From contig JANWUV010000008.1 in the NCBI GenBank assembly GCA_025057975.1, positions 62,001 to 126,000 of the forward strand: a DNA stretch of 64,000 nucleotides, read 5' to 3'. Each line of letters begins with the position of its first letter. The first letter of the stretch is position 1. The notes beneath the pieces are model-generated. The model made no database searches and was not told the DNA's origin. It was given only the letters and a program-made list of their open reading frames with translations. The position numbers and the translations under genes were made by a program. The stretch is from Chloracidobacterium sp. (GTDB lineage Bacteria > Acidobacteriota > Blastocatellia > Chloracidobacteriales > Chloracidobacteriaceae). Below, piece after piece: positions 2,851-8,773 of this stretch.

Positions 2851-3495
2851 CTAGACTGTCGCCACAACCTGCTCGTGCGTCATGCCGGCTTTGATCTTCT
2901 CCTGAATGCCGCGCAGCCGCCCGGCGCCGGTCACAACAAAACGGCTGGCTTCTGCGCCGCGCGAGATGCACGCAGTTTGGACGCAATCAAGGTCGTGGCC
3001 GCTAATGTGGCTCAGCATGCCAGCGAGAATGCCCGCAATCATCGGATCGGAAAAATCCTCCTCGTCACGAATGACTTCGGCGAAAATGGAATCTTCCAGC
3101 GCCGCTGTGACGATGCCCGTCTCCCGAGCCTGCGACACGTCAATCGTCATCAGTCCCCAGCCGTGATAGACGAAATATTCACGGAAGAAGCGTAGAAACA
3201 TCGAGATCGGCATTTCGCGGAGCTGAAGGTTGCCTACCGCCTGCGCTTCGCGTTCCAGCCGGCGCATGATGCGTTCTCCCCAGATTTTTCCGCAGGTTTT
3301 AAAAATGACCGGCCACGCAGGGCCGGCTTCGTCCTTGACGGCGGTGTACACACCCGCCAGGAAGTCGGTTGACAGGAGGCATAAGCGCGTTTTGGCTGGG
3401 TTCCACAACACGCCTTCGCGCAGGTCAAAGCCCAACCGTGATTCGTCAAAAAAACTCTCCAAACCCTCAAGTAAATCCACCGTAGCACGCATCAT
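2851..3495 (-). CDS. V4R-domain protein (4-vinyl-reductase / BchJ-like), first copy
   Basis: A 214-residue V4R protein. This small-molecule-binding fold was named from BchJ, once assigned to 4-vinyl reduction of chlorophyllide, and is now often viewed as a tetrapyrrole or ligand carrier. The C-terminal part has the typical Cys-containing strand (HDLDCVQTACISRG followed by SRFVV). The region around EYFVYHGWG matches the hydrophobic strand seen in V4R domains. It starts ATGATG at 3495 and overlaps the upstream stop by four bases (ATGA), so the phycobiliprotein-like protein and this one are probably made together. The second V4R gene at 4739-5401 is a diverged paralogue. Pigment binding is inferred from family and context, not from a visible catalytic site. 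Confidence 0.85.
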   Translation of the reverse strand: MMRATVDLLEGLESFFDESRLGFDLREGVLWNPAKTRLCLLSTDFLAGVYTAVKDEAGPAWPVIFKTCGKIWGERIMRRLEREAQAVGNLQLREMPISMFLRFFREYFVYHGWGLMTIDVSQARETGIVTAALEDSIFAEVIRDEEDFSDPMIAGILAGMLSHISGHDLDCVQTACISRGAEASRFVVTGAGRLRGIQEKIKAGMTHEQVVATV

Positions 3496-4091
3496 GCCCC
3501 GTAGTCCTCCGACAAGACATTCATGGCGAGGTCAAGATAAGGCGACAGCAACCGAAAGCTTGTCGGTTGCAGGTCCTGCTGACACTCACGTTTGACGACA
3601 TAGTACATGTGGTAAATGGACTTAACCTTCCCTTTGAAGGCTTTGAGTTTCGTCGCCAGCGCCGGGTCAATCTTGGCGAAGGCTTCCCGCATCGCCGCGG
3701 TCTGTCCAACTTCCGGGAAGTCAAACGCCTGCAAAATGGTTTTCATCCAGATGAGGAGCTTATTCTCAAACCAGCGCGGGTCTTCAATCAGCATCGAAAG
3801 CGTGGCGTATGACAGTACATAACGCGCGTCGCGGACGCACTTCGCCGTAGCATGCTCGTGATGCTGTTCGTAGGGATACATCGTGTAGATTTCCTTTACG
3901 CTCCGACTAACGATACCGGTTTCCTTAGCACGGATATCCTTCGCCGCCGCGATATGCGCGGAAAGATTGGGGTAGTAACTCTCCAGCTTGGCGAACTCGG
4001 CGTCGGTGAAGTATTTGCCCTCCGCCTGCCGAAACATGTTCGCCAAATCGGGGTGGCGGTGTGGTGGAACTACGGTGGCTGGTGCTGTCAT
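3492..4091 (-). CDS. Phycobiliprotein-like globin-fold protein with CxRD bilin-attachment motif
   Basis: A 199-residue, mostly helical protein similar to phycocyanin/allophycocyanin subunits. The key match is Cys85 in AKCVRDARYVLSYATLSM: phycobiliproteins attach bilin at the equivalent Cys84 within C-[LIVA]-R-D and continue with an aromatic-rich helix. The length also fits (about 160-180 in phycobiliproteins). Later helices (LKAFKGKVKSIYHMYYVVK) are compatible with the C-terminal globin helices. ATG 4091 is preceded by GGAGG about 13 bases upstream, and the stop overlaps the V4R start. Anoxygenic phototrophs lack phycobilisomes, so it is probably a sensor, carrier or assembly factor. The Pap operon of Synechocystis is reported to encode proteins with predicted bilin-binding domains. 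Bilin loading is unproven. Confidence 0.8.
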   Translation of the reverse strand: MTAPATVVPPHRHPDLANMFRQAEGKYFTDAEFAKLESYYPNLSAHIAAAKDIRAKETGIVSRSVKEIYTMYPYEQHHEHATAKCVRDARYVLSYATLSMLIEDPRWFENKLLIWMKTILQAFDFPEVGQTAAMREAFAKIDPALATKLKAFKGKVKSIYHMYYVVKRECQQDLQPTSFRLLSPYLDLAMNVLSEDYGA

Positions 4092-4194: not shown

Positions 4195-4704
4195 TTATTT
4201 CTTGACTTGTGAAGCGCGGATGGCGCTTTCCGTCGCTACCCGCAAGAACTCGCTCGCGCCGGCGCTTGACCACGGCGACTGCGTCGAACGACCGCCGCCG
4301 TTGGTGTCCCAAGGGATGCTCTGGAAGAACGTAAAGGCGGCGATTTCGTCGGTTGGGGCTACCGCCGACGCAACAACGGCGACGGGTGCCGGCGCAGGAG
4401 AGGCATCGGCCGGCGGTGGGGCGACTTCCACCGGCAAAGGCAACAGCCCTTCCGTCGCGCGGCTGGTTGCCGCCGTTAGGCGTGTTGAAGACGGACGCGG
4501 CGCCGACCGGACAGGAGCGCCACCGCGTTGCGCCCAAGGCACAAGCTCCGTGAAAAACACCTCGGCGGTATCCTCCAAACTCAGCGCCGCGCGAGCACGC
4601 TGGATAGCCAAGTTGAGCTTTTCACGACAGCGTGCAATCCGCGCCAGCAACGCCTCTTGTTCATCAAGTAAATCTTGGGGGAGCGAAAGACTAAGACTCG
4701 TCAT
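4195..4704 (-). CDS. Unrecognised protein with two FF..PW motifs
   Basis: No family recognised (169 residues). Residues 10-45 form a charged amphipathic helix or coiled coil. This is followed by FFTELVPW (50-57), a Pro/Ala-rich linker (about 60-120) and a related FFQSIPW (126-132). The two aromatic-PW motifs at the ends of a flexible linker look like short docking motifs for a partner protein. No signal peptide or membrane segment is seen. It lies between the two pigment-type genes with gaps of 34 and 103 bp on the same strand, which supports its being a real gene of the cluster. Confidence 0.7.
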   Translation of the reverse strand: MTSLSLSLPQDLLDEQEALLARIARCREKLNLAIQRARAALSLEDTAEVFFTELVPWAQRGGAPVRSAPRPSSTRLTAATSRATEGLLPLPVEVAPPPADASPAPAPVAVVASAVAPTDEIAAFTFFQSIPWDTNGGGRSTQSPWSSAGASEFLRVATESAIRASQVKK

Positions 4705-4738: not shown

Positions 4739-5401
4739 TCAGTCGATGAGCTTCTCCATGATTTCTTGCGCCGACGCGCCTTCGCGCCGCCAGAACTCAG
4801 CCGCATTGACCTTTTTCTGAGAACCGACAATAAACTTACAGCAGTCATTGCCCATTGAGTAGCACTGCACCTCAATCCCTCCGCGCTCCTCACGGTCAAA
4901 GACGCTGAAGACGCCGGCAAACATGCCGGCATACATATAGCAAACTGGCTTACCGACTTGCTCCATTGCCTTTGCCACGGCGGAGTTCTTGATGGTGATA
5001 AAAACCATGCCTTGCTTTTCAAAGCTGAAGTCAATTGCCCATGCACCCCAGCCTTCAGCTGTCAGCGGCCACCACCAAGATTCGAGGACGAACTTGCGGT
5101 TCATTTGCCAGATATCGAGTTTACCGCCGCCGAACTCGTGGCGCATTTTTTCAGCAAAGCGCTTCATGTCACTGACGCCCCACTCGTAGCCGCATTTGTA
5201 CATTACAAGGTTAGAGGCGTCACCAATTTCTTCATCCAGTCCGGCATGGAGACTGGTGATAAAGTCTTCTGACGCATAGACGCCGCGCTGACCGTCGCGG
5301 AGACGAATCGTGCGGGTGCGCGGATCACGCGAAAGAAAGTCTTCTGGGACAAAGTAATTGTGGTAATTTTTGATGCCGCCGTCAGCGACGTTGATGGCCA
5401 T
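4739..5401 (-). CDS. V4R-domain protein, second copy
   Basis: A 220-residue V4R protein. The C-terminal Cys-rich strand pattern (REERGGIEVQCYSMGNDCC followed by KFIVG) is the V4R signature, and an aromatic stretch (ESWWWPLTAEGWGAW) precedes it. ATG 5401 is preferred over GTG 5410 because AAGGAG lies eight bases before the ATG. It differs clearly from the copy at 2851-3495; paired V4R genes are also a feature of the Synechocystis slr0144-slr0152 operon. Probable role: binding a tetrapyrrole or related ligand in the cytosol. A 141-bp gap with an A7T5 tract (5468-5479) separates it from the upstream ferredoxin gene and could hold an internal promoter. Confidence 0.87.
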   Translation of the reverse strand: MAINVADGGIKNYHNYFVPEDFLSRDPRTRTIRLRDGQRGVYASEDFITSLHAGLDEEIGDASNLVMYKCGYEWGVSDMKRFAEKMRHEFGGGKLDIWQMNRKFVLESWWWPLTAEGWGAWAIDFSFEKQGMVFITIKNSAVAKAMEQVGKPVCYMYAGMFAGVFSVFDREERGGIEVQCYSMGNDCCKFIVGSQKKVNAAEFWRREGASAQEIMEKLID

Positions 5402-5542: not shown

Positions 5543-6016
5543 TTACGTAGCCGACGCCGCCAGTTTAGTCATATCAAAGTCTTCGCCTTCGAGTTCTAGG
5601 ATTCTGGACTTTGTAATGATTTTCCCGCGATCAATCAAGACGCGACCATCGCGCGGGTGAAGGATCGGCACTTCAGCGCGCTTGCCGATGAGCGCCCGCA
5701 AGTCGTCAATGCTTTGCACATACATCCCTTCAGGCAACTCAACGACGACGCCGTCGCCGATGATGCGCGCCTGACAGGACAACCGTGAACGGGCAGTCGC
5801 GCCGGTGATCGTCCCAAGTGTTCGAATTTCGCGTTCCGTACGCGGGGTTAGGGATTGTTCGCCCTTGATGACGAAAACATGGCAGGTTGCACATAGTCCC
5901 ATACCGCCGCACGCCATCGCCACCTCACACTGTGAAGCTAACAGCGTGTCGAGCACCTTGGTGTCCGTCTTAACCGAAATTGTCCTATTGATTGGCTGTA
6001 ACGTGATGCTTTTCAT
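5543..6016 (-). CDS. [2Fe-2S] ferredoxin with C-terminal extension
   Basis: A 157-residue 2Fe-2S ferredoxin. Cluster ligands are Cys36, Cys42, Cys45 and Cys81 (CGGMGLCATC and RLSC). The C-x5-C-x2-C spacing is that of adrenodoxin/bacterial ferredoxins rather than the C-x4-C-x2-C of plant-type photosynthetic ferredoxin. Residues about 98-157 are an extra segment not found in simple ferredoxins. It starts at ATG 6016, five bases after the FNR-like gene, so the two are certainly cotranscribed. Likely role: one-electron carrier to or from a partner in this cluster; the partner is unknown. Confidence 0.92.
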   Translation of the reverse strand: MKSITLQPINRTISVKTDTKVLDTLLASQCEVAMACGGMGLCATCHVFVIKGEQSLTPRTEREIRTLGTITGATARSRLSCQARIIGDGVVVELPEGMYVQSIDDLRALIGKRAEVPILHPRDGRVLIDRGKIITKSRILELEGEDFDMTKLAASAT

Positions 6017-6021
6017 AGCAA

Positions 6022-6717
6022 CTAACTCCAGCGCTCGACAGTAATGTTTGACTTTGGGATTCCGGCTGACTGGAAGGTTTGCTGATAAAACTTTATCTCG
6101 GGATACTCACCTGCAGCATAAAATTTTGTATTTGGGTTTTCGAGATACAAGCTTCTCAGCATAACCGGTGTCACACGCCCCAGCCCACCAACCCATCCAA
6201 CAGGACGTGTTGGCTGGTTCAGGATTAGTATGCGCGTAAGTGGGCTGTTTTTTTCAAAATGCTTGAATTCATCATCGTAGAGGATTTGGCTTGAGTCAGT
6301 AAGTTCATGAAAGAGCGTAAGGCGGCGTTCTGGCTGACGAGTGAGAATGTAGTAGAAAAAGCTGCGTGCAGCTGGGATACAGTAATCCATGCCAATGAAG
6401 CAAACCGGATCTAAACTGTCAGTTTGTAACTTGAGCTGTCCCATTGGCTCAGTGACATGGATAATGTCACCAACTTTTACTTGGTCGTAAAATTGCGTTC
6501 CGAAATTGCCAATTCGTTTGACTGTTACCTGAAAATACTTTTGGTCATGGGGAGACGAGCTGAAAGTTAGGCAAGCTTGTCGTTCAGCATTGAGATGGAA
6601 AACGGCAAACTGTCCCGGTGTAAAGCTGAAAGGGTATTCTCCGAAGTCAAAAATAAACGAGCGTACATCTGTGGTTTCTTGAATAATGCGGCAAACAGTA
6701 TATGGTCGCGTGCTCAT
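6022..6717 (-). CDS. Ferredoxin-NADP reductase-like protein with degenerate cofactor motifs
   Basis: A 231-residue protein with the overall FNR pattern: an N-terminal beta-barrel with FTPGQF, and a C-terminal domain ending in a YAAGEYP...YQQTFQSAG region. The usual flavin motif RxYSxxS appears as CLTFSSS (49-55), lacking Arg and Tyr. The pyridine-nucleotide motif GGxGxxP appears as GMDYCIP (109-115). It may therefore have lost flavin or NAD(P)H binding, or bind them differently. It is the first gene of the pigment-type cluster, 45 bp after the coiled-coil gene. Its DNA is visibly AT-richer than its surroundings (6121-6180 is 26/60 G+C), which may point to transfer. Confidence 0.75.
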   Translation of the reverse strand: MSTRPYTVCRIIQETTDVRSFIFDFGEYPFSFTPGQFAVFHLNAERQACLTFSSSPHDQKYFQVTVKRIGNFGTQFYDQVKVGDIIHVTEPMGQLKLQTDSLDPVCFIGMDYCIPAARSFFYYILTRQPERRLTLFHELTDSSQILYDDEFKHFEKNSPLTRILILNQPTRPVGWVGGLGRVTPVMLRSLYLENPNTKFYAAGEYPEIKFYQQTFQSAGIPKSNITVERWS

Positions 6718-6762: not shown

Positions 6763-7557
6763 TTAACGCGTGCGGAGCGCCGCCAGTTCAGCTTCCAGAG
6801 CCTGAATATAGGCTGCCGTCTGGCTGTTGGTTTGGGCGACTTCCGCCACAATTGTCTCCAACTCCTGCGACAGACGGGCGTTCTCCGCCATTGCTTCGCG
6901 ATAGACCCGTAAAAGCGCCCTTTGGTAGTGATCTACCTGTTGGACGAACAGCTCCAACTCGGTTTCCGCCTCCTGAGCAGCGTCGAGCGTACCGAGCAGC
7001 GCCATATCCTTCTGTCCAATCCGGCGGTCGAGTTGAGCCTGATGACTGCGGAAGGCTGAAGCAATGGCGTCAAGATCAGCCTGCGCTTCCTGCATATCCA
7101 AAGCGGCTTCCCGCAGACGCTGCTGAAGGTAGAGGATATGGTTGACCAGTTGTTCGGTGTGCTCTGCAACGCGCGCCTGATGCGCAGCGACATCCCGGCG
7201 GATGGCTTCCAATTCACGGGTGACTTCGCCGACGGCTGCAAAGAAGTTGCGCAGAGCCGTGTCGTAGTGCGCCAGCTCATTGTTGCGTTCACGGAGAAAC
7301 CCAAGGGCTTCGTCCCGCTCATACCGAAGCTGCCGGATGGTGGTTTCCGCCACTTCCAAGCGCTTAATGCCGTGCCGAAGACCAGGAAAACGCTCAAGCG
7401 TGCGATTAATGAGGCTGACGCACCAGCGATAGAGAACACGGGTGACGGTTGGCAGCCGCTGAAGGCCGTACTGCTCTGGCGGTGCTGATGTGGGCGAAGG
7501 GGAAACGCCACTGGCTATCATCGCTCTGTCGAGGGCTTGGGCAATCGGGGGATGCAA
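6763..7557 (-). CDS. Coiled-coil protein of unknown function
   Basis: No family recognised. A 264-residue protein from TTG 7557, or 252 from ATG 7521; no good ribosome-binding site is seen for either. From about residue 65 to the end it is a nearly continuous charged coiled coil (for example LRERNNELAHYDTALRNFF and LRTR at the end). No signal peptide is seen; a short hydrophobic patch near residue 45 is too weak to call a membrane anchor. It lies 45 bp upstream of the FNR-like gene in the same direction and may be the first gene of the operon, possibly as a scaffold. Confidence 0.7.
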   Translation of the reverse strand: MHPPIAQALDRAMIASGVSPSPTSAPPEQYGLQRLPTVTRVLYRWCVSLINRTLERFPGLRHGIKRLEVAETTIRQLRYERDEALGFLRERNNELAHYDTALRNFFAAVGEVTRELEAIRRDVAAHQARVAEHTEQLVNHILYLQQRLREAALDMQEAQADLDAIASAFRSHQAQLDRRIGQKDMALLGTLDAAQEAETELELFVQQVDHYQRALLRVYREAMAENARLSQELETIVAEVAQTNSQTAAYIQALEAELAALRTR

Positions 7558-7657: not shown

Positions 7658-8773
7658 TCAGGTAGCGCCGGGTGAGGTCGCAACCGGCGTCTCGGTTTCC
7701 TGCAACAAACCGGCGGCCCGCAAACCCCCAACGAGGAAAAGAAACACCAAGGCTTCGTTCGGAACCGCCGCCAACAACTCGCCGAGCGTTCGGCGGCCGT
7801 CAAAAAGGCGCAGTAACCCAACCGTTTGCTGGGGGAGGGCGTTGGCCTCCAACCGGCGGCGCAAATCCGGCGCAAGGACGTAAGTTCTAGTGTCTTCGAC
7901 TTTGGTGTGCAGCAAACGGTCAGCCAACGTCAGCAGCAACTCGGCCGTCTGAAGCGCCGACGCCGGCGTGTGGTGGGCGGCGGACGGATGGACGGCTGCG
8001 CTCAGTTCAGCGAGTGGCTCTTGGTCTTCCGCCGCTGTCGCAGTCGGCGTCGGAGTATCCTCTAAGGTCGCCGACTTGCTTGTCCGACGCAGGGCTTCCG
8101 CCGCTTCGTCGCGTCGCCGAAAAGCTTCCATCAGCAAACCCATGAGCCGGTCGTGCAGTGTACACGGCGGCGGAACAGGCGGTGGCGGGGTCATCTGAAG
8201 CTTGACGCCTTCCCACAGGAGGATGTCATAGGCGGCCGGCTCGCCGGACCGGTCGCCGGTTTCGGCGTGAACAAGATCACCATTGCTGAAGTAAAGGTAG
8301 CCGACCCGTCCTCCAGCAGCGATGCGCAGGACGCAGCTTTTGCGTTCCATCTCTAGAAGCTGGAGGAATGAAGCAAGGGTCAGGCCCTGAATTACGCCCT
8401 GCTGACGCGCGTTCAACTCGTTGCAGATCACGGTGTAGAGCGTGCTCACGCTGAACGGTTTGCGGATGACCGGGAGCGCGCCGATCTGGTGCAGACGGCT
8501 TTCGACATCGCTGACCGCCATGGCAGTCAGAATGACGATGGGGAGGTTGACCTGCTCGCTCAATAGGTGAGCGATGAGTTCAAAGCCGTCCATGACGGGC
8601 ATCTGGAGGTCAGTGACAACGATGTCCGCCGGCTGATGCGCCAGAATGTCGAGCGCCTCCTGTCCGTGTCCGGCCGTCACGACGGAAAAACCGTCCTGAT
8701 GCTGGCTCAGCCACTTGGACACAAGCCCGGCAATGGCGTCGTCATCTTCAACCAAGAGCACGCGCTTCTTCAT
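7658..8773 (-). CDS. Response regulator with DUF4388 (PatA-like) domain
   Basis: A 371-residue regulator. Residues 1-120 form a receiver domain (acidic LVEDDD, phospho-acceptor Asp in VVTDLQMP, conserved Lys in IRKPFS). Residues about 125-235 form a DUF4388 domain (LASFLQLLEMERKSCVLRI, GYLYFSNGDLVHAETG). A variable Ala/Thr/Pro linker and a C-terminal alpha-helical region with LRLFDGRRTLGELL follow. DUF4388 proteins are frequent in myxobacteria and acidobacteria, with outputs through protein contacts rather than DNA binding. ATG 8773 is preceded by GGAG. No cognate kinase is adjacent. Confidence 0.88.
   Translation of the reverse strand: MKKRVLLVEDDDAIAGLVSKWLSQHQDGFSVVTAGHGQEALDILAHQPADIVVTDLQMPVMDGFELIAHLLSEQVNLPIVILTAMAVSDVESRLHQIGALPVIRKPFSVSTLYTVICNELNARQQGVIQGLTLASFLQLLEMERKSCVLRIAAGGRVGYLYFSNGDLVHAETGDRSGEPAAYDILLWEGVKLQMTPPPPVPPPCTLHDRLMGLLMEAFRRRDEAAEALRRTSKSATLEDTPTPTATAAEDQEPLAELSAAVHPSAAHHTPASALQTAELLLTLADRLLHTKVEDTRTYVLAPDLRRRLEANALPQQTVGLLRLFDGRRTLGELLAAVPNEALVFLFLVGGLRAAGLLQETETPVATSPGAT

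Follow-up and report, generated by a model that had tools for sequence, protein, structure and literature searches.

The window, a 64,000-nucleotide stretch of the genome of Chloracidobacterium sp., encodes a genuine homologue of cyanobacterial phycobiliproteins, a globin of the BBAG type (bilin biosynthesis-associated globin). All genus genomes examined keep its bilin-attachment cysteine, whereas a sister lineage (genome G399) has lost it and retains the Arg-Asp pair of the same motif. We favour the reading that the globin and its neighbours make up a tetrapyrrole-handling complex for assembly or repair of reaction centre or antenna, related to that of slr0144-0149, in which covalent bilin would be dispensable; we regard this reading as having an even chance of being right.

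BBAGs were named by Rockwell, Martin and Lagarias in 2023; three lineages of them bind bilins, and their function is given as unknown in the Discussion of that paper (PMC10151467). Since this family has already been published together with its cluster and its occurrence in Chloracidobacterium (PMC10151467), novelty is smaller than a preliminary description of this DNA had assumed. New here are the occurrence of the globin in seven of seven genus genomes with Cys85, Arg87 and Asp88 invariant, Ala85 in G399, the lack of canonical heme oxygenase matches over cut-off in all eight genomes together with their retention of a bilin-reductase-like protein next to a third V4R gene, the Glu and Ser residues of that protein and, in our sample, the restriction of BBAG-type globins to FMO-bearing genomes. 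The genus paper (PMC8245765) contains no mention of bilin, heme oxygenase, phycobili, phycocyanobilin, V4R or phytochrome, and PMC10156173 mentions Chloracidobacterium in a reference only. Among the papers listed for bilins, V4R or phytochromes of the genus and for pre-PcyA or bilin-binding globins since 2022, we recognised no study dedicated to the globin cluster in Chloracidobacterium.

The globin and its relatives

The globin ORF occupies exactly positions 3492-4091 of the minus strand and encodes 199 aa between an ATG start and a TGA stop. A phycobiliprotein-like protein had been proposed at this place, with its strand unstated, and the proposal is borne out by a match to Pfam PF00502 (Phycobilisome; E 5.1e-21, 75.7 bits, cut-off 22.2). 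Best sequence matches among solved structures are allophycocyanin beta chains (E 2.5e-9), and the bilin Cys of their C-x-R-D motif aligns to Cys85 of the globin, in agreement with the placement first described. The motif reads CVRD (residues 85-88; 3828-3839, minus strand) and contains, besides the attachment Cys, two residues of the bilin pocket, Arg and Asp. The PF00502 score and the allophycocyanin beta matches thus indicate homology far beyond chance, and a chance motif is ruled out by the former.

The fold of the globin is likewise predicted to be phycobiliprotein-like, which agrees with the globin fold expected at the outset. Its AlphaFold model has a mean pLDDT of 76.4 and is weak at about residues 121-160. 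All 50 matches listed by Foldseek are phycobiliproteins, and VIA gave Z of 12.4-15.0 over 50 rows, nearly all of them phycobiliproteins or derivatives such as smURFP, on a scale where helical folds reach middling Z by chance. Since 12 of the 16 rows in the alignment behind the model (A3) are allophycocyanin-like, this likeness is support and not independent proof.

Allophycocyanin and other light-harvesting phycobiliproteins share with the globin their fold and the positions of the attachment Cys, Arg and Asp, but identity to allophycocyanins is only 25-31%. The globin is extended at its N terminus and its C-terminal half is longer; with 199 aa, as compared with about 160 in allophycocyanin, the "matching length" of the preliminary description holds only roughly. 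A light-harvesting antenna protein is ruled out: PF00502 was found at one place only in the genome (3.52 Mb, 86 contigs), there is no alpha/beta pair, and all equivalog cut-offs for allophycocyanin, phycocyanin and phycoerythrin are missed (best apcB, 37.3 against 228 bits). The host had been described as an anoxygenic phototroph; it is indeed Chloracidobacterium, a chlorosome phototroph, and its genome encodes the FMO antenna protein. Cyanobacterial contamination is ruled out by the gene order common to seven genus genomes and by 86-93% identity of their globins, as against the values for allophycocyanins given above.

Photoglobins, which combine a globin with a B12-binding part, belong to the same wider globin clade. 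Within the 199 aa only PF00502 was found, with no fused B12-binding part, which rules out a photoglobin. Two photoglobin-like proteins are encoded in other Acidobacteriota genomes (L006 1456-2556 and L007 1352-2494). From their sequences we take them to be globins joined to a B12-type part, and in place of CxRD they have C-x-E-D-A. In a tree of 20 globins, 12 cluster globins (acidobacterial ones and those of two Acaryochloris plasmids, the only cyanobacterial cluster globins included) are split from 8 allophycocyanins and photoglobin-like proteins with a support of 92/91, just under the treekit star level of 95/80. Scans of viral contigs with the globin protein (11 pattern matches) and with globin alignment A1 (42 pattern matches) both gave 0 relatives.

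Gene order and cyanobacterial counterparts

All genes of this neighbourhood lie on the minus strand and are transcribed in the order response regulator, coiled-coil protein, flavin reductase-like protein, 2Fe-2S protein, V4R_A, 169-aa protein, globin, V4R_B and kinase. The response regulator (7658-8773; receiver PF00072 E 4.7e-23, DUF4388 PF14332 E 2.6e-17) and the coiled-coil-like protein (6763-7557) are syntenic neighbours in 6/7 loci, and their membership in the operon is uncertain. In G397 two ORFs (L026 1317-2433) take the place of the single response regulator gene, which is uninterrupted at the five remaining loci that extend this far. There follow the FAD/NAD(P)-binding reductase-like protein (6022-6717; PF00175 E 4.8e-5, PF00970 E 8e-4; 6/7 loci), whose NCBIfam match (E 1.6e-17) is below the cut-off of that model, and the 2Fe-2S ferredoxin-like protein (5543-6016; PF00111 E 1.7e-9). 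V4R_A (220 aa, 4739-5401; PF02830 E 4.9e-16) is 94-98% identical within the genus; its likely ATG start is at 5401, the listed ORF beginning at GTG 5410. The V4R domain is named for bacteriochlorophyll 4-vinyl reductase. Next is a Pro/Ala-rich protein of 169 aa (4195-4704; 6/7 genus loci) upstream of the globin gene. Downstream are V4R_B (214 aa, 2851-3495; PF02830 E 4.1e-7, with 30.4 bits slightly below the cut-off of 31) and a Ser/Thr protein kinase with C-terminal extension (963-2777; PF00069 E 8e-51; adjacent in 7/7), for which the listed ORF begins at TTG 2867 and the likely ATG start is at 2777.

The preliminary description spoke of translational coupling to a V4R protein, and the globin gene does overlap the V4R_B gene behind it. 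The overlap amounts to 4 nt in all seven genus genomes (ATGA; GTGA in one) and to 1 nt in G399. The order kinase-V4R_B-globin is kept in 7/7 genus genomes, and the run of 169-aa protein, V4R_A, Fe-S protein and reductase in 6/7; in the seventh (L027) the contig begins just before the globin.

Pre-1 clusters contain heme oxygenase, an Fe-S protein, two V4R proteins and one or two globins, and CXRD is found in some, not all, BBAGs (PMC10151467). The window resembles BBAG-1 in having a PF00502 globin with CxRD clustered with genes for two V4R proteins and one Fe-S protein, and in the presence of a putative FDBR-family reductase in the genome. It differs in four respects: no heme oxygenase exceeds the cut-off in Chloracidobacterium, the gene for the reductase-like protein lies next to a third V4R gene on a separate contig, the cluster contains extra genes for kinase and flavin reductase, and the Cys is lost in the sister lineage.

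The cyanobacterial slr0144-0149 cluster is derived from pre-1 clusters (PMC10151467). Its products (Pap proteins) interact according to affinity purification from Synechocystis and are located on the thylakoid (PMC9880817), and the operon has been tied to PSII or PSI assembly (PMC4853703). The role of V4R itself is described as unresolved (PMC13326532). Acaryochloris genes annotated as "apcA" are slr0149 homologues (PMC6002478). A plasmid search with the globin alone retrieved 2 records. Two Acaryochloris marina plasmids encode V4R, small protein(s), V4R, 2Fe-2S and "allophycocyanin". The set V4R / FF-W protein / V4R / 2Fe-2S / globin is common to the window, the slr0144-slr0149 cluster and its Acaryochloris plasmid copies. 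Identity to the proteins of the Acaryochloris clusters is 42-43% for V4R_A (against the first V4R protein), 29-30% for V4R_B (against the second), 48-50% for the Fe-S protein and, over about half the length, 29-31% for the globin. Cyanobacteria differ in possessing PSI/PSII and, with it, a second PF00502-like protein that lacks CxRD; Chloracidobacterium has one PF00502 protein.

In Acaryochloris this second protein is a hypothetical one encoded next to the second V4R gene (L133 8000-8488, L134 7995-8480), and it resembles PF00502 with E of 1.5e-4 and 0.0093. Further, FF-x(3-5)-W motifs occur twice in the 169-aa protein and three times in its G399 counterpart (L038 2055-2750); the small protein of one Acaryochloris cluster (L134 7624-7986) has three if FL is allowed. 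Such motif counts were reached in 0-1 of 5000 shuffles, and the motif is present in none of 11 other proteins checked. It possibly represents a shared docking repeat.

The attachment cysteine and bilin enzymes

The globin is found in all seven genus genomes, the other six copies having the identities to that of the window given above, and Cys85, Arg87 and Asp88 are invariant among them. Over the 21 genus pairs dN/dS is 0.020-0.074, with dS often saturated. The globin is under strong purifying selection within the genus.

The genome scan for globin relatives matched 586 stretches, 555 of them relatives, and the best 80 correspond to 79 loci. Among these best 80 of 555, the nearest relative from outside the genus is the globin of G399, a MAG of another FMO-encoding acidobacterium (labelled Actinomycetota, with "WN_Acidobacteria" in the contig name). 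It is 60% identical to that of the window and lies on an 8.1-kb contig. The G399 globin has Ala at position 85 and keeps both Arg87 and Asp88; the Ala codon is GCC, two bases from TGC. The change from Cys to Ala is read from this one MAG. Its cluster is otherwise intact, with reductase, Fe-S protein, V4R_A, FF-W protein, globin, V4R_B and kinase. Thirty of the 79 loci were compared for the motif: the G399 locus (L038) is without CxRD, and the other 29 keep it, being allophycocyanin-like loci that say nothing about BBAGs. Conservation of Cys85, proposed as a check in the preliminary description, therefore holds throughout the genus and fails in the sole orthologue found outside it.

Ala85 might be taken to mean that the globin has lost ligand binding altogether and serves only as scaffold of the V4R complex, Cys85 being a relic. 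The lack of any heme oxygenase match over cut-off would fit such a protein, as would the second PF00502-like protein without CxRD in the cyanobacterial cluster. Invariance of Cys-x-Arg-Asp in seven genus genomes against a background of 86-93% identity, and of Arg-Asp also in G399, argues against it, and we rate this explanation the lowest, as quite unlikely.

The question of a bilin source was approached through enzymes. Heme oxygenase PF01126 exceeds the cut-off in 0/7 genus genomes, with one fragment of E 0.22 in G396, and was not found in G399 by profile search; the same search was positive in two cyanobacterial genomes and in the Synechococcus elongatus control. PF14518 exceeds its cut-off in 0/8 genomes, with short sub-cut-off fragments in 4/8. 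That Chloracidobacterium is without heme oxygenase has already been remarked (PMC10151467). Of the bilin enzymes for which a genome search had been suggested, canonical heme oxygenase thus gave nothing over cut-off in the genus, and a bilin-reductase-like gene (PF05996) turned up in 7/7 genus genomes. The latter is over cut-off in 6/7, the window's own genome giving 30.5 against 31 bits. It is also found in G399, where two stops are flagged inside the match and an uninterrupted ORF of 237 aa nevertheless covers most of it.

The bilin-reductase-like gene lies on another contig (C14) than the globin of the window, and far from the globin in two-contig genomes. It adjoins the third V4R gene in 7/7 genus genomes and in G399. 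Together with a small gene of 128 aa these two genes form a second conserved cluster (L030 7204-9065, G000:C14) present in 7/7 genus genomes. A PDB search with the single protein sequence gave 0 matches; a profile aligned 6qwq and 2x9o. According to this profile alignment, the protein (L002 1453-2202) has Glu95 and Ser212 where both solved reductases have Asp, and Glu and Ser occupy these positions in 8/8 genomes. The second position (Ser212) presumably corresponds to Asp220 of PcyA, which we take to be catalytic. Asp105 of PcyA, the counterpart of the first position (Glu95), is catalytic, and pre-1 enzymes are without PcyA Glu76, His88 and Asp105, one tested enzyme being poorly active (PMC10151467). 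Pre-PcyA proteins have been described from heterotrophic and anoxygenic photosynthetic bacteria in a 2026 paper (PMC13193486).

These data bear on the possibility of a true biliprotein, in which biliverdin or a reduced bilin on Cys85 would serve as a pigment for photoprotection or signalling. The bilin would derive from an unrecognised heme-opening route or from cyanobacterial neighbours in the mat, and would be processed by the bilin-reductase-like protein. Invariance of Cys85, Arg87 and Asp88 in 7/7 and presence of the reductase-like gene in 7/7 and G399 speak for it, and heme oxygenases can diverge beyond detection (PMC10151467). Opposed to it are the lack of PF01126 and PF14518 matches over cut-off in any of the eight genomes, loss of the Cys in G399, replacement of Asp by Glu and Ser in the reductase-like protein of 8/8 genomes, and the behaviour of published BBAGs, which are photoinert or weakly fluorescent (PMC10151467). 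We consider a heme oxygenase-independent biliprotein improbable, placing it second after the favoured reading.

Distribution and role of the cluster

PF00502 is present in 6 of 396 sampled Acidobacteriota genomes, 4 of them of this genus and 2 with the photoglobin-like proteins. FMO occurs in exactly the 4 sampled genomes with a BBAG-type globin and in no other, and 8/8 carriers of the globin cluster (seven of the genus and G399) have FMO. Since the carriers form a single clade, this co-occurrence is a correlation without independent repeats and may reflect one inheritance event.

Confinement of the set to FMO-bearing acidobacteria in the sample would also fit a module for breakdown or detoxification of (bacterio)chlorophyll. 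The bilin-reductase fold would then act like red chlorophyll catabolite reductase (RCCR) on an opened (B)Chl catabolite, and globin and V4R would sequester the product. Replacement of the bilin-type active-site Asp residues and the vinyl reductase from which V4R takes its name point in the same direction. The FDBR fold family does include RCCR, but pre-1 clusters exist in non-phototrophs (PMC10151467). We judge such a module unlikely, ranking it below the biliprotein and above the pure scaffold.

The favoured reading is handling of tetrapyrroles, because the cluster persists under strong selection without recognisable heme oxygenase, because acidic residues of the reductase-like protein are changed, and because Cys85 is gone in G399 but Arg-Asp is kept. 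As a member of the sister group of light-harvesting phycobiliproteins and without an antenna role, the BBAG-type globin would hold the tetrapyrrole in a complex with the two V4R proteins and the 2Fe-2S protein, and the adjacent flavin reductase and Ser/Thr kinase would power or tune this complex. From the affinity-purification data of Synechocystis we infer, by analogy, that the cluster proteins form one complex. The pocket with Arg87 and Asp88 would be retained to accommodate an open-chain tetrapyrrole or one of similar shape, and the thioether through Cys85 would be an option that the genus has kept and that the cluster can do without. The complex would handle tetrapyrroles while the photosynthetic apparatus is being assembled or repaired, both in Chloracidobacterium and in the phototroph nearest to it. 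Light sensing, sequestration of breakdown products and cofactor delivery, as put forward in the preliminary description, are candidate functions.

Binding of tetrapyrrole by the globin and a role of the cluster in assembly or repair are inferred from several observations: homology and fold, conserved gene order, selection, the Acaryochloris set, FMO co-occurrence, the change of Cys85 to Ala and the heme oxygenase result. On the other side stand the single-clade nature of the FMO link, the remark that photosystem roles of the slr0144-0149 set may belong to slr0150-0152 (Rockwell et al., PMC10151467), and the binding of bilin, though poor, by BBAG-1 in E. coli (PMC10151467). Since pre-1 clusters occur in non-phototrophs too, the ancestral role was not photosystem assembly alone. 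A wider proposal, which we advance tentatively and hold to be rather doubtful, is that cyanobacteria and acidobacteria with type-1 reaction centres share the V4R/Fe-S/globin complex as an assembly module for photosynthesis. In the acidobacteria, without heme oxygenase-derived bilin, globin and reductase-like protein would handle a non-bilin or (B)Chl-derived tetrapyrrole, the Cys becoming dispensable.

Chloracidobacterium performs anoxygenic photosynthesis, its cluster is small and conserved, it has a single globin and no heme oxygenase that can be recognised, and a relative shows a natural Cys-to-Ala change. Questions that are tangled in cyanobacteria thus become separable here: whether the globin needs a covalent bilin, whether it needs heme oxygenase, and whether the complex has a role in reaction-centre assembly where neither phycobilisomes nor PSII are present.

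An allophycocyanin beta gene was also found on contig JAAUUT010000034.1 (L097 8959-9444), which is labelled Candidatus Gracilibacteria and is probably a misbinned cyanobacterial contig.
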